DNA of 64,000 nucleotides from Planctomycetota bacterium (GTDB lineage Bacteria > Planctomycetota > Phycisphaerae > WQYP01). The DNA is taken from NCBI GenBank assembly GCA_021805985.1, contig JAJZDN010000012.1:1-64000 (forward strand). The letters run 5' to 3'. Made by a program: the position numbers and the translations under genes. Below the pieces are notes generated by a model. It saw only the letters and a list, made by a program, of their open reading frames with translations, was not told where the DNA came from and did not search any database. Below are positions 7,197 through 39,405 of this stretch, one piece after another (within the stretch, counting starts at the first letter, position 1; each line of letters starts with the position of its first letter).

Positions 7197-8766
7197 GCGT
7201 AATTTCCCAAACCGGCCCAGCACCCATGGATACAACAAGATCACCCGCTTTTAATTCCAATTCAAGAGCGGACACAACCTCCGGAAATGTAGGAATATAG
7301 CGACCATATCGGCCATTGGCCACAATGCGATCGACTAAATTTTGCGAACTGACGGCTTTGATATCAGCTTCGGTGTCCCGTGCCATATAAATATCTGGGA
7401 TAATCACCATATCCGCATCGGAAAATCCAAGCGAAAATTCCTCCAGTAAACTGCGGGTGCGGCTGTGCTGATGTGGCTGAAAGACACAAATCAGTCGCTG
7501 CGGCCGGTAGAATTCCCGCAGCCCCGCCAGCGTTGTGCGGATTTCTGTGGGGTGATGGGCATAATCATCCAGGATCGTGATGCCACCAGCCTGTCCCAGT
7601 AACTCACTGCGCCGATCAGCCCCAGTAAATGATTCAATCGCCGAAGCTATGACATCCCATGGCACATGGCAATGCCGGGCCAGTGCTGCAGCGATCAGAG
7701 AATTACCGATATTGTGCCGTCCCGGTACCCGCAAAGCCAGCCGCCCGACTCGGCGGCCCATATACGATACGTCATAGGAAAGCCGTCCGTTTTCTGATTG
7801 AATGTCGGTCGCCAGCCAAGTTGGTGTGCCCGTGAGGCCGTAAGTCTCCACACGTGCATGGGCCTGGGTGGCCGCTTGCTGGCACCAGGGATTATCCGCA
7901 TTGGTGACCACCACGCCATCGGGGTCTACCTGTGACATAAACTGTCCGAAGGCCGCGGTTATTTCATGAATATCGTGATAATAATCCAAGTGGTCAGGCT
8001 CCACATTGGTTACGGCAGCCAGACGTGGATGCAGATTTAAAAAACTGCGGTCAAATTCGCAGGCCTCGGCGATAAAATAGTCACCGGCTCCGCCGTGGGC
8101 CGAGCCGCCCAGTTGCCGCGAGCTGGCCCCAATAATGTACGAGGGGTCAATTCCGGCCCGTAAGAGAATATAGGCAACCATGGATGTAGTGGTGGATTTA
8201 CCATGTGTACCAGCGATGGCGATGCCATGCTTTAACCGCATGATTTCACCAAGCATCTGGGCATATTTAAAAATCTTAACGCCAACATGCCGGGCTTGTG
8301 ATAGTTCGGGATGATCGGCCTTTACCGCAGCGGAATGCACCACATATTGAGCGTCCGGGGGAAAACTGGCGACGGTCTGCTGATAGGAAATCGCGACGCC
8401 CATTTTTTCCAGTTTTTGCGTCGCGGGAGATTCCGCACGGTCCGATCCCGAGACAACGGCTCCCATGTGGGTCAGCATTTGCGCCAGGCCGCACATACCG
8501 CTGCCGCCGATTCCAATAAAATGAACACGCTTTTGATAAAATTTATTATCGTGCATATCGAACCCAGCGGCCCTTTCCGTCGCATTTATTCTGATGGGCT
8601 TTTTGAAATCAATGACTTCCAGCTGTGTCGCCCCCGGTTGCGAAATATCCTTTTTGGTTGATGTCACCACGAGGCTGCCTCCTTTATTTTTAGCACGGCT
8701 GGAGCAGTCCATTGCCGCTCGTGATAAACAGGGTATTGCCCGGACGTCTTCACCGCTGATCTCCAA
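7174..8766 (-). CDS. murC: UDP-N-acetylmuramate--L-alanine ligase
   Basis: 'VHFIGIGGSGMCGLAQML', 'IAGTHGKSTTTSM', 'DDYAHHPTEIRTTL'; true start probably internal (e.g. MHDNKFYQKR). Confidence 0.95.
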   Translation of the reverse strand: MEISGEDVRAIPCLSRAAMDCSSRAKNKGGSLVVTSTKKDISQPGATQLEVIDFKKPIRINATERAAGFDMHDNKFYQKRVHFIGIGGSGMCGLAQMLTHMGAVVSGSDRAESPATQKLEKMGVAISYQQTVASFPPDAQYVVHSAAVKADHPELSQARHVGVKIFKYAQMLGEIMRLKHGIAIAGTHGKSTTTSMVAYILLRAGIDPSYIIGASSRQLGGSAHGGAGDYFIAEACEFDRSFLNLHPRLAAVTNVEPDHLDYYHDIHEITAAFGQFMSQVDPDGVVVTNADNPWCQQAATQAHARVETYGLTGTPTWLATDIQSENGRLSYDVSYMGRRVGRLALRVPGRHNIGNSLIAAALARHCHVPWDVIASAIESFTGADRRSELLGQAGGITILDDYAHHPTEIRTTLAGLREFYRPQRLICVFQPHQHSRTRSLLEEFSLGFSDADMVIIPDIYMARDTEADIKAVSSQNLVDRIVANGRYGRYIPTFPEVVSALELELKAGDLVVSMGAGPVWEITHELVRRL

Positions 8767-10003
8767 TCTTTAATTGAACCTGCTGCAAAAGCCAGCGGGC
8801 CACTGTTGTTGCGGCATCGGGGCGAGCCTGGCTGTGCGCCGCAAGCGACATTTCTCCCAGCCGGTCAGTTTCCGTGAGTAACCGCATGAGCACTGGCTTA
8901 AGATCGGCGGCGTTGCGCGCGGGATTTTTACTATCGCGCACGAGAACCGCAGAACCGGCAGCACAGAGTTTTTCCGCGTTGGCCTGCTGATGATGATCTT
9001 TATGGAACGGATACGGCATAAGAATTGCTGGTACACCCATGCATGATAATTCCGCGCACGTGCCGGCACCCGCACGCGCAATGGCCAAATCGGCCATGGA
9101 CCACACTGCGGCCATATCATCGCAATAATCCAGGATTTTCCATTGAACTTGTGGCCAGCGGCCCGCCAGAGTCTGTAACTCGGCCGCATGGTCCAAGCCT
9201 GTAAGATGCAAAATCTGCCACTGCGAACCGCCCGCCCCATTCAGAAGATGTTGCATTTCGGGATCACTTAGCAATATCGCGACCGCATGATTGATGCTTT
9301 GCGCTCCCAGCGAGGCACCGGTAACCACCAGAGTTTTTCGATTGGGGTCCAAAGCGAGTTTTCCCGCTGCAACTGACCGATTTATTTTCACCAGCGACGC
9401 CCGGACGGGACAGCCTGCAACCTGCACGCGATCCGCATATTTCTGTGCGGATCGACCCATGGTCCATTGTGAAAAAATGACATTAGCCCGTCCCATCAAA
9501 AATCGATTAGCCCGCCCCGCCAGTGCATCGGGATTCAACAAGCCAACCGGTATATTTATTCTTGCCGCTTCGTAAGAAGCCGGCCCCGCCGCGTATCCAC
9601 CTAATGCCAGCACCGTGGCCACCTGATGCGAAGCAAAAAAATCCCGCCAGTACCGACAAGACTTTTGCCAAGCCGTATAAAACGCCGGCCACTTCCAAGG
9701 ATTGGTGGAAAACGGCTTAACGTCCTGTTGAATATAATCCGCACCGGCCGCACCGAGCAGCCGCTGATCAATTTTTCGCGGCGTGGCAGCCCAGATAATT
9801 TTGAGCGGCTGGCCAGCGGAGGAAAGCAGTTCGTCCAATCGCTGTGCCACTGCAAGTCCGGGATATAAGTGCCCCCCGGTGCCTCCCCCTGCCATAATCA
9901 CGTACACGAGATCTTTACAGGGCAGTGCGGATATTCCCAAACCCGCCGAAGTTCCATCTCGTGTCGGCACTGCCGCATGGCCGCCGGTACTAGCAAGATT
10001 CAT
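8750..10003 (-). CDS. murG: UDP-GlcNAc:undecaprenyl-PP-MurNAc-pentapeptide GlcNAc transferase
   Basis: 'IMAGGGTGGHLYPGLAVAQ', 'GGYAAGPASYEA', 'MADLAIARAGAGTCAELSCMGVPAILMPYP'. Confidence 0.95.
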   Translation of the reverse strand: MNLASTGGHAAVPTRDGTSAGLGISALPCKDLVYVIMAGGGTGGHLYPGLAVAQRLDELLSSAGQPLKIIWAATPRKIDQRLLGAAGADYIQQDVKPFSTNPWKWPAFYTAWQKSCRYWRDFFASHQVATVLALGGYAAGPASYEAARINIPVGLLNPDALAGRANRFLMGRANVIFSQWTMGRSAQKYADRVQVAGCPVRASLVKINRSVAAGKLALDPNRKTLVVTGASLGAQSINHAVAILLSDPEMQHLLNGAGGSQWQILHLTGLDHAAELQTLAGRWPQVQWKILDYCDDMAAVWSMADLAIARAGAGTCAELSCMGVPAILMPYPFHKDHHQQANAEKLCAAGSAVLVRDSKNPARNAADLKPVLMRLLTETDRLGEMSLAAHSQARPDAATTVARWLLQQVQLKIGDQR

Positions 10004-11353
10004 AGCGCACCGGCCCCGGCGGGTTCTTTTTCCGCCAAGTTAAATTCCAGAGGCGCACGGCCAGCGGAACTTTCATTACTGTGCCGCACCCCTGCTTCCA
10101 GCCGATTCACCCGCTCTACGCTCATCACCAGGCCAATGGCTCCAGCGGTAAGAATCCAGCCAGTTCCACCGGATGAAATCAGCGGTAGCGCAATTCCCTT
10201 GGTGGGCACGGTAACCGTCACGACCGCGATATTCATCGCCGCCTGCAAGCCAATCATGCCGGTGCAACCGAATGCAATGAGTTTACCAAATAAATCCCGC
10301 GCCCTTCGCCCTGTCTGCCAACCGGAAAACAGCAGCGTGAGATACAACAAAATCACCATCATGCATCCGAAAAAGCCGAGTTCCTCGGCGATCAGGCTGA
10401 AGATAAAATCGGTGTTATCTTCCGGCAGATAGCCCATTTTCTGAATGCCGTCACCCAAGCCGCGGCCCCAAAATCCGCCGCTGGCGAAGGATAAAAGCGA
10501 TTGAATGGGGTTGTATCCCGCGCCTTTTGGGTCTAAATGCGGATGCATGAAAATCATCAGGCGTTCGCGGCGATAGGGGTACATGCCAAACTGCGAAGTA
10601 AAGCACCACCAGCGCCGGGGGCAGCAGCATGGCAATATGCCACCAGCGACACCCAGCCATTAACATCAGCAGAACAGCGATTCCGGCAACCAGAGCGGCT
10701 GTGCCGAAATCCTCTTTTAATATCAAAGCACTGGTCGCCCCCACCACCACCATGAGGGGAACAAATCCCTTCCAGAAATTGCGAATCTGCTCTCCCTTAT
10801 GTACCGCATAGGCACTGATAAACAACACCAGCGACCATTTGGCGAGTTCCGAGGGTTCAAAGCTCAGGGCATGAGAACCAATGCGCAACATCAGCCAGCG
10901 CTTGGCACCGTTAATATCCGTGCCCAGTCGCGTGAGCACCAGGGCCAGGCATATTAAACTCACCAGCACCAGCATCGCCGGTGCCGAGCGCATCAAGCTT
11001 CTGCCAATGAGGCGACGATAGTCCAGACGCCATAAAAACACGAGCAGAACCATCGCCAGCACGGCGTGAACAGCCTCGACATTCAGAACCAGTCGGACAA
11101 AATAGTCATGAACTAAATGGCCGATGCGGGCATCAGCGCTTTGGGTCATCAGCAGGCCCACGCCTAACAGGGCCATGCACACCGCGAGCATGAGTTGGTC
11201 ATAGGTTAAGGACACGGGGCTTAGCTGCACAGTGAATCGCCGAGGAGGCGGCATCACCGAAATATCCGGCATGGACTGCGCAGACTTGCGGTCGCCCTTC
11301 GCCCAGGCTACGCGGGTTGGCCAATTGATTAAATTACGGAACCTGGCCATCAC
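10000..11353 (-). pseudogene. ftsW: FtsW/RodA/SpoVE-family protein interrupted by an apparent frameshift (ORFs 10451-11353 and 10000-10635)
   Basis: N-terminal ORF has 'SFEPSELAKWSLVLFISAY' and 'LKEDFGTAALV'; C-terminal ORF continues in another frame with 'YRRERLMIFMHPHLDPKGAGYNPIQSLLSFASGGFWGRGLGDGIQKMGYLPEDNTDFIFSLIAEELGF'. Confidence 0.85.
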
Positions 11354-24041: not shown

Positions 24042-24247
24042 CTTCCAACGTCCTCATGAGCATAGCCCGCAGTCTGAGGAAATTGCCCGACTTCTATTCA
24101 CCGCAAACTGATGGCGCAAGTCGCGTCCGCGCTGGATCTTTCAAGGTGGGTTGCAGCGTTTTGAGAAAGACCCTTGCGACCCGAATCGCTCGTTACGTCC
24201 ACATTATACGCATAAAGAAATAAAATTTGCCAGGGAAATATCACATT

Positions 24248-24332
24248 TCGGAAATAAGTGAGTTTCACCAGGTAACGCCGCCGCACTCGACGAGAGCGCG
24301 GCGTTGACGTGGGCAAAAGAACCTTGATTTAC
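24248..24332 (+). repeat. Left ~85-bp inverted repeat bounding the accessory island
   Basis: Reverse complement of 29467-29551 with 3 mismatches in 85 bp (aligned by hand). Confidence 0.95.
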
Positions 24333-24447
24333 TGAAATGCACACGTAACAAAGACAATTCACATGAATTACGTCACCATTTGAACCTCACGGTATTCACC
24401 ACGGATCACGACAAAAGCCTCGCTGTGTTTGGGCATAGTTCGCCTTA

Positions 24448-24990
24448 TCACTGTTGGATGTAGCCGAGAGATGTTAGGCGAACCGTTAATGCCTGCTGAC
24501 TGACCTCATACTTATTTGCTAACCGCTCAATTTTTTCTTCAGTCGTTAGCGTTAAGCGAGCAAATTTTGCAAGATCTGTATTCAGAAATGATATTGGCAT
24601 CAATAGTTCAGCAGCAAAAAGGTTTGCTTCCACTTCATCAACGTTGGTTCCCGCACTTGACTGTTCGCTCCGCAGCTTAACCTGATATCCCGTCCACTGT
24701 CGGTCAATATGCAGCCGTTCGCCCTCATGCAGCAGGAAATGTCCTAACTCGTGCCCGACGGTAAAACGCCGCCGGTTCGGGTGATGTCTGGCGTTCACAC
24801 CAATAATCGCCACCCCTTTGGTTGGTTCACGAAGCACGAAACCAGACAATTCATCTGGCGCATCTTGTTTGACGACTTTCGCGCCCAAACGCCGTGCCAA
24901 GTCATCGACTGGCACCGGGGCCTGCTCGACACCGAATCGCTCAAGCAATTCGAGCGCCCGTTCCCTAATCATTTTTCGTCGTACTAGCAT
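24448..24990 (-). CDS. ImmA/IrrE family metallo-endopeptidase
   Basis: 'FTVGHELGHFLLHEGERLHIDR' HExxH motif; 'EVEANLFAAELLMP'. Confidence 0.95.
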   Translation of the reverse strand: MLVRRKMIRERALELLERFGVEQAPVPVDDLARRLGAKVVKQDAPDELSGFVLREPTKGVAIIGVNARHHPNRRRFTVGHELGHFLLHEGERLHIDRQWTGYQVKLRSEQSSAGTNVDEVEANLFAAELLMPISFLNTDLAKFARLTLTTEEKIERLANKYEVSQQALTVRLTSLGYIQQ

Positions 24991-24993
24991 GGT

Positions 24994-25317
24994 TCAACCC
25001 TTACTTTTAACGGGGCCTACAGCCGACCGCACAAACTCTTTCGTGGATTCCGGCAGATGCTGTAACAATTCTTCTATTTTTAAATCCTCCGTTGATTCCC
25101 GAGCCAAATCCGAAAGCTCCATGTGTAATGCGTGGGCGAGCCTTACGAGAGTATGAGCCAGTATCTTTTGTCGCCCTCGCTCAATATTCACTATTGAGGT
25201 ACGACTCAGGCCGATTAACGTTCCAAGATTTTCCTGCGTCAGCTTCTGGTGCAACCGCGCCCGTTGGATTCGCTGGCCGAGCTCACGATAATACAGATCC
25301 TTGTTCGTCATATTCTT
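24994..25317 (-). CDS. XRE-family HTH transcriptional regulator
   Basis: 'LGQRIQRARLHQKLTQENLGTLIGLSRTSIVNIERGRQKILAHTLVRLAHAL'; likely start MTNKDLYY within ORF 24994-25368. Confidence 0.92.
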   Translation of the reverse strand, partial: KNMTNKDLYYRELGQRIQRARLHQKLTQENLGTLIGLSRTSIVNIERGRQKILAHTLVRLAHALHMELSDLARESTEDLKIEELLQHLPESTKEFVRSAVGPVKSKG

Positions 25318-25388
25318 ATTATATCCCACGGCGCGCCGGATGCAAACAGTTTGTAATTCGCACATCATTTTATGATTACATAAATTAT

Positions 25389-25417
25389 TTGACTTTGTTC
25401 GCAGCAGTGGGTAAACT
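25389..25417 (+). promoter_or_regulatory. Candidate sigma70-type promoter of the ubiquitin-like operon
   Basis: TTGACT-N17-TAAACT in the divergent intergenic region; AGGAG Shine-Dalgarno at 25483-25487 before ATG 25496. Confidence 0.4.
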
Positions 25418-25495
25418 ATAGGTAATGTTTATCAATCTTGGTCTTGTTGACTGGCGAGGATAAGCAGATTTTTACCAGCATTAGGAGAAATCACT

Positions 25496-25807
25496 ATGGT
25501 TAATGAATCAATCAATGAGTCTGACGAACGTCGGCATGAACACGGCGGCGGCCACAATCATCCGATTGTTTACATTTACATTGACACTCACAAGTACCAA
25601 GCACCTAAGCCTGACATGACTGGCGAGGAATTGCGCAATCTCGCTAAGCCCTCTATCGGGAATCAATACAACCTTTGGCTTGAGATACCCGGTCTAGGCG
25701 ATGATAAGCTTGTCGGGGATGCCGAAATTATCCATCTCCATGACGGCATGTGCTTCTATAGCGCACTCAAAGAAATTAATCCAGGAGCAACCGATGCAAT
25801 TGCTTGA
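25496..25807 (+). CDS. Ubiquitin-like protein, multiubiquitin-domain type (single domain)
   Basis: 'IVYIYIDTHKYQAPKPDMTGEELRNLAK...WLEIPGLGDDKLVGDAEIIHLHDGMCFYSALKEINPG' matches the multiubiquitin domain pattern as recalled. Confidence 0.85.
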   Translation: MVNESINESDERRHEHGGGHNHPIVYIYIDTHKYQAPKPDMTGEELRNLAKPSIGNQYNLWLEIPGLGDDKLVGDAEIIHLHDGMCFYSALKEINPGATDAIA

Positions 25808-26171
25808 GGAAGATGAGCGTTATCTCACTGAGCGATGCTACCAATTCGACCTCATTGCGGAAGGAGAGGTCGGGTGTTTGATCATCAAAGATTTTCCGCT
25901 CGCTTCTGGCAAATATGACCGGGATATCGTTGATCTCCTCATATGCATTCCCAAAGGTTACAACACCGCCAAACTTGATAACTTCTATATTGATCCCCCT
26001 ATTCGCCTCAAAGTTGGCGGAGCTTATCCACACAGGGGTGATTATTTCGAGAGCCACATCCAAAGGAAATGGCAACGTTTGTCTCGACACATGTCAGTAT
26101 GGCGGCCAGGAATCGATGGCCTTCGGACGTTTATGCCCTTTATCTACCACGAACTTCAAAACAAGGATTAA
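25794..26171 (+). CDS. Prokaryotic E2-like protein (E2 family E type)
   Basis: ATG 25794 overlaps the Ubl stop; 'DIVDLLICIPKGYNTAKLDNFYIDPPIRL...WQRLSRHMSVWRPGIDGLRTFMPFIYHEL' E2_E-like pattern; operon context. Confidence 0.78.
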   Translation: MQLLEEDERYLTERCYQFDLIAEGEVGCLIIKDFPLASGKYDRDIVDLLICIPKGYNTAKLDNFYIDPPIRLKVGGAYPHRGDYFESHIQRKWQRLSRHMSVWRPGIDGLRTFMPFIYHELQNKD

Positions 26172-26173
26172 AG

Positions 26174-27532
26174 ATGCGATACACACTCAGCATTACCGAA
26201 GATTTAAACGACCGGCTTAAAAACGCGGTTTTTGGTATGGTCGGCTGCGAAGGAGCAGCATATGTTGTTTGTGGGGTGGCAACCTTAACTGACGAGATTC
26301 GCCTTTTGGCAAGAGATATCATTCCCGTCTGTGACGAGCATTACCTTCTCCGGCAATCAAGACGCTTGTCAATCGACGGCCGCTCTTTTGTTCCCGTTGC
26401 AAAGCGGGCCAAGTTTGAAAAGGAAGCGATTCTCTTTGTTCACTCACACCCGGAGGATTCTCCACATTTTTCCAACTATGATGATGAAGAAGATCCAAAA
26501 TTGATGGCGTTCTTTAATGCTCGGACCGGACAGACACCGCATGGATCGCTCCTGTGTTTGCCGCCGGATCGATTAAAGGGCAGAATATGGACGACAACCG
26601 GCTGGCAACTCATAGAAAGAATCCGAGTTATCGGGAATCGGTTCCGTTTCTTTGATTTCGATACAAGCAAACCGCCGCTTCCGGAGTTCTATGACCGACA
26701 GGTACGTGCGTTTGGCCCAGAAATCCAATATCTTCTCCGCAGGCTACACGTTGGGGTGGTTGGTGCCGGGGGCACCGGCTCAGCGACGGTTGAACAACTT
26801 GCACGACTTGGCGTCCGAGTAATTTCAATCTTTGACGGAAAATCCCTCGCGACTAGTAACGTCACTCGAGTTCATGGAGCGACCTTGGCAGACGCTGGAA
26901 CGCCCAAAGCCGTGGTTCAAGAGACACATATCAAGAATCTGGGCTTGGGCACAGAACCGTATGTCCACTCACGTCCAATTACCGACGAGGATATTGCCAA
27001 GCATCTTCGTGGTTGTGATGTGGTTTTTGGATGTACTGATAACCACCTATCACGATCCATTCTTACCAGACTGGCACTATTTTACCTGATTCCCGTAATT
27101 GATATGGCGGTGAAGGTACATTCGGAACAGCAAGTCATTCGGGGCGTCTGGGGGCGTGTGACGACGTTGCTACCCGGAGAGGCCTGCTTGTTCTGCCACG
27201 AAACCATTAACCCTGACATAATACGAGCTGAGACTTTGTCGGTCACTCAACGCGAGCACGAACTCGCTGAAGAATACATAACAGAACTTGCCACAGATGA
27301 GCCGGCAGTCATTACGTTTACGACCGCTGTTGCGGCACAAGCAGTTAATGAATTATTGCATCGGCTGACTGGTTTTATGGGCGCAGAACGGACATCATCC
27401 GAGGTCCTTCTGCAGTTTCATAATAGCCGGATACGTACCAACCGGATGACTCCCAAGCCCGATTGTTACTGCCAGCAGATACAACATTGGGGACGCGGAG
27501 ATAGTCGAAATTTTCTCGGGCTCACCTGGTAA
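26174..27532 (+). CDS. JAMM(JAB)-ThiF/E1 fusion protein
   Basis: JAMM 'HSHPEDSPHFSNYDD' fits HxHx7SxxD; E1/ThiF 'VGVVGAGGTGSATVEQLARLGV', 'CDVVFGCTDNHLSRSIL', 'LLPGEACLFC'. Confidence 0.92.
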   Translation: MRYTLSITEDLNDRLKNAVFGMVGCEGAAYVVCGVATLTDEIRLLARDIIPVCDEHYLLRQSRRLSIDGRSFVPVAKRAKFEKEAILFVHSHPEDSPHFSNYDDEEDPKLMAFFNARTGQTPHGSLLCLPPDRLKGRIWTTTGWQLIERIRVIGNRFRFFDFDTSKPPLPEFYDRQVRAFGPEIQYLLRRLHVGVVGAGGTGSATVEQLARLGVRVISIFDGKSLATSNVTRVHGATLADAGTPKAVVQETHIKNLGLGTEPYVHSRPITDEDIAKHLRGCDVVFGCTDNHLSRSILTRLALFYLIPVIDMAVKVHSEQQVIRGVWGRVTTLLPGEACLFCHETINPDIIRAETLSVTQREHELAEEYITELATDEPAVITFTTAVAAQAVNELLHRLTGFMGAERTSSEVLLQFHNSRIRTNRMTPKPDCYCQQIQHWGRGDSRNFLGLTW

Positions 27533-27538
27533 TCGATT

Positions 27539-27913
27539 ATGACTATGCGACTTATTGATATCATATCTTCAACTCGGACCAAATTGCGATCATTTTGGCT
27601 ACGACTGCGTACCCCGAAGCAACGAAAGACGTTTAGCGGTTTGATTCGCTACAGTTCGTTTGCAGTTCCTGCACCGGAACTTCTGGCAGGTATGCTCATC
27701 TTGAACGGACCAGATGAAAATCCTAAATGGCTCCGGTTTAGTTGTCCGTGTGGCTGCAAAACTGTCATAGCATTAAATCTTATGAAGAGTCATACTCCAC
27801 GTTGGACAATAACAATCCACCAAGATGGTACGCTCTCAGCAGCCCCGTCAGTAGATGTCACCAAATGTGGTAGCCATTTTTGGATTTACCACAACAGAAT
27901 CCAATGGGTATGA
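27539..27913 (+). CDS. DUF6527-like small Cys-rich protein
   Basis: 'WLRFSCPCGCKTVIALNLMKSHTPRWTITIHQDGTLSAAPSVDVTKCGSHFWIYHNRIQWV'; last gene of the conjugation operon. Confidence 0.75.
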   Translation: MTMRLIDIISSTRTKLRSFWLRLRTPKQRKTFSGLIRYSSFAVPAPELLAGMLILNGPDENPKWLRFSCPCGCKTVIALNLMKSHTPRWTITIHQDGTLSAAPSVDVTKCGSHFWIYHNRIQWV

Positions 27914-29466
27914 GAAGACTTCGATAGGAAGTCCATATGACGACTTCATCGGTAATTGCGCGTTGGGGAGAGGCTTATCGCAACACGTTGCTTAATTCCT
28001 TGTTCCTTCGCGCCGACACCGTTTCGCGCTAGAGTGAGAATATGCAGAATGATCACAAGTATTTTATCTACGTTCGCAAATCGACCGGCACCGAGGAGCG
28101 GCAAATCCGTTCCATCGGCGATCAACTGGCCGAAATCCGCGAGCTCGTTCGTCGAGAACATCTTGAAGTTGTCGGAAGCTTTGAAGAAAGCCAGAGTGCC
28201 ATGACCAAAGGTCGCCCCCTATTCAGTGAGATGCTTGAACGGATCGAAGCGGGCGACGCTGACGGCATCATCGCCTGGCACCCTGACCGATTGGCACGGA
28301 ATGCCTTTGATGGCGGGCGAGTCATCGACCTCATCGACGAACGGAAAATCCACGATCTTAAATTCTGTTCGTTCTGGGTTGAGCCGACCGCCCAAGGCAA
28401 GTTGATGCTCAATCTTGCGTTCGGCCAATCCAAATACTATTCCGACAGCTTGTCCGTCAACATCCGTCGAGGGCAACGGCAAAAAGTGGCCAACGGCATC
28501 TACGCCCGGAAGGCACCGATCGGCTATCTCAATGAGCCGAAGCTGCGAACCATTGTTCCTGATCCGGAACGGGCACCGCTTGTCAAAATGGCATTTGAAA
28601 CATATGCCACTGGCAAAATCTCTCTTGTTCAGCTTTGCGATATTCTGAACCAGAAGGGACTCCGGAGCAGTAACGACCGACCAATGCAGTCTTCCCGTTG
28701 CCAAGATTTTCTTCGCAACCGTTTCTACTACGGCATGTTCATTCACAAGGGAGAAATGCATGAAGGCACACACGAACCCCTGATCACCAAAGCACTCTTT
28801 GACCGTGCCCAAGAATCCATGCAGCGACGCAGCAAGCCTGAGTCCGTGCGTCTCAAGTCATAGGTCTATCGCGGCCTTCTACGTTGTGGCGAATGCGGCT
28901 GTGGTATCACCATGGAAACCCAGAAGGGTCATAATTATCTGCGATGCACCAAACGGGTGGAGCGCGACTGTTCCCAACCTTACATTCGAGAAGAGTGTAC
29001 GACTGGACAAATTGCCGCTGCCGTCACTACGGCATCACTGCCGGACGAGGTCGCCGAATGGCTCATTGAACAGGTCAAAACTGAACGAACCTCTAACGTC
29101 GCAATGATCAACGATGCGAAGCAGAACGTCCAAAAGGCTATCGCCAAGATTGAAACTACTCTTGACCGTCTCACAACGGCCTATCTTGATGCCGGAGCGT
29201 TCACCGCTGCTGATTTCCGTATCCGTAAGGCTGAAGCCCTGGGAAAGAAGCGAAAATTGGAAGACGAACTCTTCGCCCTTGACAGAGGGGAAACCGTACG
29301 GTTCGAACCGCTCATACGGTTCGTAAATGGCTCAAAACAAATGAAATACGTCGCTCAAGCGGGAAATCCGAAAGAATTACGAACACAACTGGAACACATC
29401 GGTTCGAACCTCACGTTAACGAACCGGACACTCAATTGGGAACCACGGGGAGCGTGGAAACTCGTT

Positions 29467-29551
29467 GTAAATCACGGTTCTTTTGCCCACGTCAACGCTG
29501 CGCTCTCGTCGAGCGCGGCGGCGTTACCTGGTGAAACTCACTTATTTCCGA
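29467..29551 (-). repeat. Right ~85-bp inverted repeat bounding the accessory island
   Basis: Inverted copy of 24248-24332; contains GCGCTC-TCGTC-GAGCGC palindrome at 29500-29516. Confidence 0.95.
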
Positions 29552-29556
29552 CGAAG

Positions 29557-29629
29557 TGGAGACGACCGGGATCGAACCGGCAACCCCTGCCTTGCAAAGG
29601 CAGTGCTCTCCCAATTGAGCTACGTCCCC
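29557..29629 (-). tRNA. tRNA-Ala (anticodon TGC)
   Basis: GGGGACGTAGCTCAATTGGGAGAGCACTGCCTTTGCAAGGCAGGGGTTGCCGGTTCGATCCCGGTCGTCTCCA; full cloverleaf; CCA not encoded. Confidence 0.97.
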
Positions 29630-30179
29630 AGGAGTGTCCATCCTACCAAACGTAAGGGCTAAGGCAAGAGGCCTCCTTAATATTCTTGGCAAAAATCGGC
29701 CGCCATTGACGTAAATAGCCTGCCATCAAAGAAATAAATCGCCGAATTTCGCGCATAACTTCCACCTGCCTATTATACAGGCAGCAAAAAACCAAAACTT
29801 GGCATCTACTGGCGAACCCGTCTATTTATCAGGCAGCAGGCCATCTTTAACGTTCAGGTCTGGCCAAGAATTCTGGCAGCAATAAGGGGTGAAATCATCG
29901 CGCATTTCCGGACCTAATATGTTGCATAAACCATTATAATTAAAACACTTATATATTTCTTAACGCCCAGATTTAGTCCGCGTATTCCTCCGGCCCCTAA
30001 TTATTTCAACGCCGTAGATCACTTGCGCACGGCGTTTGCATAGTACAATAGCACCCGGAGCACGTGCGAATATTCGGACAGGCTCCTGGTGGTTCACGGC
30101 GGCAGGCCCGGGCTTGATGTGTTGGAAGCTCGATGGTGCGGAAGGAATTTGCCGTTGGCGATAGCGGAGGTTGGTTTTG

Positions 30180-37338: not shown

Positions 37339-37648
37339 GCCAACACTCCTAACTTAATTTACGCTCAACGCTCGAATTATCGCCCGGCCTGGTAACTACC
37401 AACGCCCATAAGCCAAGCAATTCGAGCCACGTAGTATATTCGCAGCACCGCTCGGCGTCCACTGGTCAATTTTCAAATTGCGATCCGCGGCGCATTTACC
37501 GTTCCCCCAAGGCCCACGTTGCGCTATGACCCCATGCAATCTGCCGAGCACCGGATGCTAAGGCGGGGGTTGATCCTTGCCGCCCACCAGCCCCCAAAAG
37601 ACGACCAGGCACTACGGCATTATGGCCTGCGGGGCCACAGGGAAGTTC

Positions 37649-38422
37649 CTAAGCCGATTCCGCCGGCAAAGTCAGGTCCAGGCGGCGGAGAACTGCCAGA
37701 AAATCAGGCGGAGGAACCTGGATAAACTCTCGCCAGTTGTGCGCTACCGGATGCTTAAAGCCCAGTTTCCAGGCGTGCAGGCACAAACGCGGCACTTTGG
37801 GCATTTTGCCCTGCGACATGCCATCAGGCACGTACAAATCATCCCCCAACACCGGTGTGCCCAGAAACATCATGTGGGCGCGAATCTGATGCAGCCGGCC
37901 GGTTTTAATTCGCACCTCCACCAGAGCGGCCGAGGCACTGACACTCAGCACTTGATAAGCGGAAATAGCTTCCTCACCGCTACGGGAAATGATGACCTTT
38001 TTTTTATCGGCCTGAATTTCTTTCAGCCGCGCCTGCACCACGCCCTGTGCGGGATCAGGTCGCCCCGCGACAATGGCAAGATATTGCTTGTCCAGGCGGC
38101 GATGTTCAAAATCCTCCCGCAGCGCGTCATAGGCCCGCGGTCGCAAAGCCATGACCAGCAATCCACTGGTCTGACGATCCAGGCGATGCAACAGGCCCCA
38201 ATCCCGGCGCGCCCCCAACTGGCGCAATGGATGCCCATACCTGGCAAACACGCCGTTGAGCAGCGTGTCTTTCACGTGCCCCAAGCCCGGCTGCGTTACC
38301 AGTCCGGCCGGTTTTCCAACTACCAGCAGATCATCATCGGCATAGATGCTGTCAAACTGCACCTGGGCATTGGCGACGGGCGGGCGGTTGTCTTCGGGAG
38401 GTTGTTTGGGCTTATATTTCAA
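37649..38422 (-). CDS. RluA/RluD-family pseudouridine synthase
   Basis: '[17 protein letters not shown]' HRLD motif; '[25 protein letters not shown]'. Confidence 0.95.
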
Positions 38423-39405
38423 TGAATTCCCTGTTCCGCCAGCCAGCGCTCGGCATCAATGGCCGCCTTGCAACCCATGCCCGCTGCGGTAATAGCCTGA
38501 CGGTAAATTGGATCGGCACAGTCCCCCGCGGCAAAAACACCTTCCACGCTGGTGGTGGACCGGAAAGGCTCTTTTAGCGCAATATATCCTTTGGCGTCGA
38601 GATCAATATGGCCTTTTAAAAATGCAGTATTAGGCGTGTGGCCGATCGCCGCGAACATACCGCGGCACTCCAGCACGGATGTAGTATTGGTTTGAAGATT
38701 TTTTATCCGCACCGCGGTAACGCCATCAGCTTCATTGCCCAGCACTTCTTCCACCGCGGAATTCCACACCGGCTTTATTTTTTTATTAGATAAAGCCCGG
38801 TCAGCCATGATCTTGCTGGCCCGCAACGTATCGCGGCGATGGACTAGATAAACCATGCTCGCAAATTTCGTCAGATACGTTCCCTCTTCTACGGCCGAGT
38901 CGCCCCCGCCCACAACCACCAGCGGATTATCACGAAATCGCGGCAACGCGCCATCGCACACCGCACAGGCTGACACACCATTATTTTCAAATTTCTTTTC
39001 GCTTTCCAAGCCCAGGTAATTGGCGCTTGCCCCGGTGGAGATAATCACAGCGTGCGCCTGCACTTGGGTTTCAGCCTCGCCGGAAAGGTCGTTAATATGC
39101 CACACCTTGAACGGCCGGGATGTGAAATCCACACGGGTCACAAAATTCTGCAAGACCCGTGTGCCGAATCGCTCGGCCTGTTGTTGCAGCACACCCATCA
39201 TTTTCTGGCCGTCAATACCATGGACAAAGCCGGGAAAATTCTCCACTTCCGTCGTGAACATCAACTGCCCACCGGGCATTCGTTCCCGATTAGCACCGTC
39301 ACCGGCAAGGACCAGGGGCTTGAGATTAGCACGGGCGGCATAAATAGCCGCAGTCCAGCCTGCCGGACCGGATCCGATGATGACAACCTGCTCAATATTC
39401 GCCAT
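38419..39405 (-). CDS. trxB: Thioredoxin-disulfide reductase
   Basis: '[26 protein letters not shown]', 'CAVCDGALP' CxxC, '[34 protein letters not shown]'. Confidence 0.97.

Follow-up and report, generated by a model that had tools for sequence, protein, structure and literature searches.

A Bub-type operon of a planctomycete, probably under a divergent CapH/CapP pair and borne on a 5.3-kb insert with terminal inverted repeats beside tRNA-Ala

The Bil system (BilABCD, ISG15-like) combines a ubiquitin-like protein (Ubl), an E2, an E1 and a JAMM protease in one operon, and is defined by a stand-alone JAMM protease and a cysteine-type E2. Bil is named in PMC13373217, where 544 operons of the Bub (bacterial ubiquitination-like) family are catalogued, 219 of them with CapW or CapH+CapP. 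Bub pathways adjoin DNA-damage regulators, yet no demonstration of phage protection by Bub is reported there (PMC13373217). In relatives of the CapP/CapH regulators, CapP activated by single-stranded DNA cleaves CapH, leading to derepression (PMC13373217). PMC12687455 describes Bub relatives as conjugation pathways, and so does the title of Ye et al. 2026, which PMC13373217 cites. The solved Citrobacter BubA, BubB and BubCD structures (PDB 9ea4, 9ea5, 9ea8, 9eae and 9eav) are attributed to Ye et al. 2026 and Gong et al. 2025, as cited in PMC13373217 and PMC12687455.

The window analyzed here is a stretch of 64,000 nucleotides from a Planctomycetota assembly of 4.68 Mb in 197 contigs. Four co-directional open reading frames at 25496-27913 form a Bub operon, bubA-bubB-bubCD-bubE, with the gene order of published Bub operons. 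It is highly likely that this operon stands under a divergent CapH/CapP pair and is borne next to tRNA-Ala on an insert of 5.3 kb (24248-29551) bounded by terminal inverted repeats. The features of the region are as follows.

24248-24332, + strand: left terminal inverted repeat, 85 nt, 96% identical to the complement of 29467-29551
24448-24990, - strand: capP-like ImmA/IrrE (M78) metallopeptidase, 180 aa (Peptidase_M78 7e-19; PADLOC capP 5.3e-34)
24994-25368, - strand: capH-like XRE/HTH repressor, divergent from bubA (HTH_3 5e-11; PADLOC capH 8.6e-9)
25369-25495, no strand assigned: intergenic region shared by capH and bubA, a putative regulated promoter judging by position
25496-25807, + strand: bubA, single-domain multiubiquitin-type Ubl, 103 aa (Multi_ubiq PF14452 2e-6)
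25784-25786, + strand: codon of BubA Gly97, at which the mature protein is predicted to end; the tail ATDAIA comes after it, and Gly97 is invariant in BubA alignments
25794-26171, + strand: bubB, Prok-E2_E E2-like protein, 125 aa (PF14462 2.7e-33)
26082-26090, + strand: candidate active site of BubB, the motif Ser97-Arg98-His99, unchanged in all 96 homologues
26174-27532, + strand: bubCD, N-terminal JAMM protease and E1/ThiF adenylation domain, 452 aa (ThiF 8e-35; Prok-JAB 7e-5, just below the Pfam cut-off)
26441-26482, + strand: JAMM motif HSHPEDSPHFSNYD, BubCD residues 90-103; H90, H92, S100 and D103 present in 100 of 100 homologues
27185-27196, + strand: CxxC of BubCD (C338, C341), which together with C431/C433 probably makes up a Zn site
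27539-27913, + strand: bubE, DUF6527 protein, 124 aa (PF20137 2e-18), present in 98 of 98 loci
28042-29655, + strand: serine recombinase (Resolvase 2.4e-21, Recombinase 1.8e-16) with an in-frame TAG at 28861-28863
29467-29551, - strand: right terminal inverted repeat, pairing with 24248-24332
29556-29629, - strand: tRNA-Ala (TGC), the insertion neighbor, identified by ARAGORN

An earlier, sequence-only reading of this DNA had described four tightly packed co-directional genes with the E2-like start overlapping the Ubl stop by 14 nt, and both observations were reproduced. The start of bubCD was placed at ATG 26174 because the longest open reading frame, from 26069, overlaps bubB. The extent given in that reading, 25496-27913, is right for the operon genes; the regulator pair, inverted repeats, recombinase and tRNA insertion had been missed. 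Its caution that the family may already be known was justified, since the operon belongs to the Bub family; the additional detail provided by this locus is the small mobile package. The Pfam profiles proposed for checking the assignments, Multi_ubiq, Prok-E2_E, ThiF, Prok-JAB (below cut-off, as listed) and DUF6527, were all matched. No NCBIfam model reached cut-off for any of the four operon genes, and scanning the operon for promoters and terminators gave results at chance level.

A set of 98 homologous loci (18 plasmid loci and 80 genome loci) was searched with profiles built in this analysis; scanning genome contigs with the single E1 protein gave no match, whereas the alignment query gave matches. 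Genes beside the E1 encoded DUF6527 at all 98 loci, an E2 at 95 and a Ubl at 94, and some E1 loci are located at contig ends, which may be why a Ubl or E2 gene is missing at some of them. The homologues thus co-occur, and their never doing so had been named beforehand as grounds for abandoning the reading. At most loci the genes follow one another on a single strand as A, B, CD, E. All four genes are found together in most of the 98 loci, which places the set far beyond chance; a broken or chance set of open reading frames was dropped as an explanation. A capP-like peptidase was found beside the E1 at 39 of these loci, a capH-like repressor at 19, and a recombinase related to that at 28042-29655 at three. 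E1 relatives were present in 107 plasmid records, and a Bub match was found on plasmid pPla86_1 of Planctomycetes bacterium Pla86. No E1 relative was detected in phage records, and two matches to the E1 among viral contigs were weak and partial. Phyla are mixed in the E1 tree, as expected for a mobile system.

BubA had been read as a single-domain multiubiquitin-type Ubl, and the profile match and a predicted beta-grasp fold both agree with this. The AlphaFold2 model of BubA, based on an alignment of 41 sequences, has pLDDT values above 90 over most of the core, and its best solved fold neighbors are bacterial multi-ubiquitin proteins and Citrobacter BubA bound to BubCD(D104A). A beta-grasp fold for 25496-25807, which the sequence-only reading had set as a test, is therefore predicted and matched to solved folds. 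The C-terminus of BubA is INPG-ATDAIA, and related tails have INPG plus x or TTEG. Citrobacter has Ubl and E2 in a single fusion protein; its solved BubA construct stops at Gly229, the equivalent of Gly97, and solved BubB constructs start at about residue 228-230, which fits cleavage after the glycine.

The assignment of 25794-26171 to an E2-like protein is upheld both by the Prok-E2_E profile and by a sequence match to solved Citrobacter BubB (9eae, 2.2e-10), which speaks, at the level of sequence, against the second ground set for abandoning the reading, the lack of a UBC-like fold. BubCD could likewise be matched by sequence to solved Citrobacter BubCD (9ea4, 1.1e-34 over residues 5-401), and the E1/ThiF domain is indeed fused to an N-terminal JAMM protease with an intact motif, as had been claimed. 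The JAMM residues E26, H90, H92, S100 and D103 are all kept, E26 in 98 of the 100 homologues; the counterpart of D103 in Citrobacter BubCD is D104, the residue mutated in PDB 9ea8. ATP-site and adenylation residues of BubCD are also intact and conserved. The traits of Bub were accordingly found here: a multi-ubiquitin-type Ubl with a C-terminal Gly (BubA), a Prok-E2_E protein related to BubB (PF14462, 9eae), a JAMM domain fused to the E1 (BubCD) and an adjacent DUF6527 gene.

Residues D62, P68, Q94, S97, R98, H99 and W103 of BubB are invariant among 96 aligned E2 sequences, in which no conserved cysteine was found, the best cysteine column being filled in 36 of 96. The conserved BubCD cysteines among the 100 E1 sequences are C287 of the CTD motif, C338, C341, C/H431 and C433. 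C338, C341, C/H431 and C433 form a probable zinc set, and no conserved candidate is left for a thioester cysteine in the crossover loop. Since the E2 has no conserved cysteine, and the E1 has none apart from those of its ATP and zinc sites, cysteine-thioester chemistry should not be assumed, and caution over such chemistry is advised for the BubB family. An adduct test aimed at the E1 cysteine, proposed in the sequence-only reading, would therefore be badly aimed. The Bub literature reportedly describes non-cysteine E2 chemistry. Judging from residue conservation, the BubB intermediate may be formed on a non-cysteine residue, Ser97.

The Citrobacter system with solved structures and the operon of the window fall into different subgroups. 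Both have the same four gene products in the same order, a JAMM-E1 fusion, an SRH-type E2, a DUF6527 neighbor and a conserved Gly at the Ubl C-terminus. In Citrobacter, however, a multi-Ubl protein is fused to the E2, whereas here the Ubl is a separate single domain with the INPG+ATDAIA tail. The C338/C341 CxxC is absent from the Citrobacter-type subgroup, whose E1 is without the zinc cysteines that the E1 of the window keeps. CapH/CapP genes lie beside the window operon but not at the Citrobacter plasmid locus (L059), and the window operon is on a 5.3-kb insert, unlike Citrobacter Bub. The locus thus represents a small single-Ubl, zinc-E1 version of Bub in a natural package with a likely switch and defined ends. 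Two other known systems were considered and rejected. Bil is set apart by its stand-alone JAMM protease and cysteine-type E2, since the JAMM domain of the window is fused to the E1, its Prok-E2_E protein is without a conserved cysteine, and DUF6527 is present. Type II CBASS (Cap2, an E1-E2 fusion with a CD-NTase) does not fit an E1 fused to JAMM and a separate E2, with no CD-NTase between the inverted repeats. The CapH+CapP pairs of CBASS and other defence operons share with the window an XRE repressor and an ImmA/IrrE peptidase divergent from the operon, but the window insert is without CBASS genes.

The fourth gene had been called DUF6527-like and the profile agrees. The AlphaFold2 model of BubE has a pLDDT of 87, and searches of the PDB with BubE by sequence and by fold gave no significant match. 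The invariant residues of BubE are W64, P70, P87, W89, P103, S104 and H113; as these include a serine and a histidine, a catalytic role is possible, purely as a hypothesis from conservation, and it is plausible that BubE is a Zn-binding protein. Lone short DUF6527 proteins were also detected in three phages (Pfam 1e-19 to 1e-22), namely Dulem virus 40 (L178, 1977-2258), Thiobacimonas phage vB_ThpS-P1 (L179, 1893-2186) and Erwinia phage pEa_SNUABM_29 (L180, 1396-1662), and DUF6527 is hence not exclusive to Bub. One possible reading of the phage proteins is counter-defence.

The inverted repeats enclose six genes (capP, capH and the bub operon) and the serine recombinase, whose reading frame overlaps the right repeat at its 3' end and continues into the tRNA. 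The right repeat ends 4 nt from tRNA-Ala. In three congeneric genomes (L152-L154) the left flank (to ~24233-24256) adjoins the tRNA side (from ~29551), 15-39 nt apart, so the insert is absent there. Defined ends, a recombinase and an empty site in relatives are traits of a mobile element. An intact recombinase is not among the traits found: the in-frame TAG, at which readthrough is conceivable, makes present mobility doubtful. This TAG separates the recombinase domain from the zinc-ribbon part. A search for direct att-type repeats gave none, the ends being inverted repeats; the 85-nt repeats do not occur elsewhere in the same genome, and 392 genomes drawn from the phylum gave only short matches to them, mostly to the GC-rich palindromic middle. 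The middle of each repeat (24279-24303 and 29496-29520) is an imperfect palindrome, CGCCGC.CTCGACGAGAGCGC.GCG, which could be a hairpin or a recombinase site. As in serine-recombinase islands at tRNA genes, the recombinase lies at one end with its 3' end in the tRNA, but the window has 85-bp inverted terminal repeats and Bub cargo. In another genome of the phylum (L175), a related serine recombinase at 8477-10216 overlaps tRNA-Ser (10041-10129, - strand) on the opposite strand.

A contig of another MAG (L067) carries the same six genes followed by the recombinase, with DNA 79% identical from capP to bubE, the same 14-nt bubA/bubB overlap and a recombinase that is open where the window has the TAG. 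It is labelled as Acidimicrobiaceae, and the contig stops before the right end of the package. The left edge has a related, diverged repeat (alignment score 51 versus a maximum of 45 in 500 shuffles). Comparison with this contig gave dN/dS values of 0.06-0.35 for capP, bubA, bubB and bubCD, the value for capP being ~0.06 and bubE being saturated; these four genes are under purifying selection.

An XRE repressor and an ImmA/IrrE peptidase beside an immune-type operon are the hallmark of CapH+CapP. Because the divergent pair at 24448-25368 is a CapP/CapH-type protease and repressor, the Bub operon is likely to be induced by DNA damage, by analogy with its relatives. The same divergent pair was found at Bub loci L055, L056, L057, L060 and L064, which lie on plasmids of independent taxa (Oscillatoria, Pseudanabaena, Acidiphilium, Synechocystis and Nostoc). 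A promoter-like TTGACT-17-TAAACT at 25389-25417 is at chance level, and the capH/bubA intergenic region is only weakly alignable with the L067 contig.

The region is most likely a DNA-damage-inducible Ubl-conjugation system borne as accessory DNA. We infer its regulation and every catalytic step, and conjugation by these Bub genes is presumed from relatives. DNA damage would generate single-stranded DNA which activates CapP; CapH would be cleaved and the operon derepressed. The JAMM domain or BubE would cut BubA back to Gly97, whose carboxylate the E1 domain would adenylate. BubB would then take over BubA, probably on a non-cysteine residue for which Ser97 of SRH is the candidate, and BubA would be attached to targets. 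Reversal of the attachment would fall to the JAMM domain, perhaps assisted by BubE.

The regulator pair might instead be the repressor and antirepressor of the mobile element itself, like ImmR/ImmA, controlling the recombinase and excision with the Bub operon as a mere passenger. Such pairs control ICEs (PMC10233336), this pair lies inside the inverted repeats, and the recombinase is co-directional with bubE, 128 bp on its 3' side, so that one promoter could serve both. We nevertheless regard this as unlikely, because the pair faces bubA across a shared 127-bp intergenic region, homologous CapH/CapP pairs occupy the same place at Bub loci where such a recombinase was not detected, and PADLOC ranks capP as the best match for the peptidase. 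A reading that joins both functions, which we consider quite unlikely, is that the insert belongs to a family of minimal elements beside tRNA genes, each with one DNA-damage switch (CapP/CapH) that drives the Ubl pathway as well as excision via the recombinase, with Bub serving the element (for example against competing phages or plasmids) and the host.

The in-frame TAG, and the presence in the genome of only the two repeat copies of one insert, would also suit a decaying insertion whose mobile part is dead and whose Bub operon is being lost. This is very unlikely given that all six cargo genes are open, that the four computed dN/dS values are low, and that the JAMM and adenylation residues are intact. 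BubA and the E1 might also form a ThiS/ThiF-like system that carries sulfur or handles another small molecule and does not tag proteins. The E1 domain does resemble ThiF/MoeB, has a probable Zn site and lacks a conserved cysteine in the crossover loop. However, the E1 is nearly always accompanied by a dedicated UBC-family protein and a JAMM protease, the Ubl modifiers have N-terminal extensions and non-GlyGly tails, and the sources cited above describe the relatives as conjugation pathways, all of which makes a small-molecule role highly improbable. A damage-induced Bub conjugation system remains our preferred reading.

A second Bub operon was detected in the same genome (L002, G000:C185; E1 at 37647-38876, - strand). 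Its Ubl and E2 are fused, its JAMM-E1 lacks the zinc cysteines and DUF6527 is present, and it groups with the Citrobacter type; the host genome thus has two different Bub subtypes.
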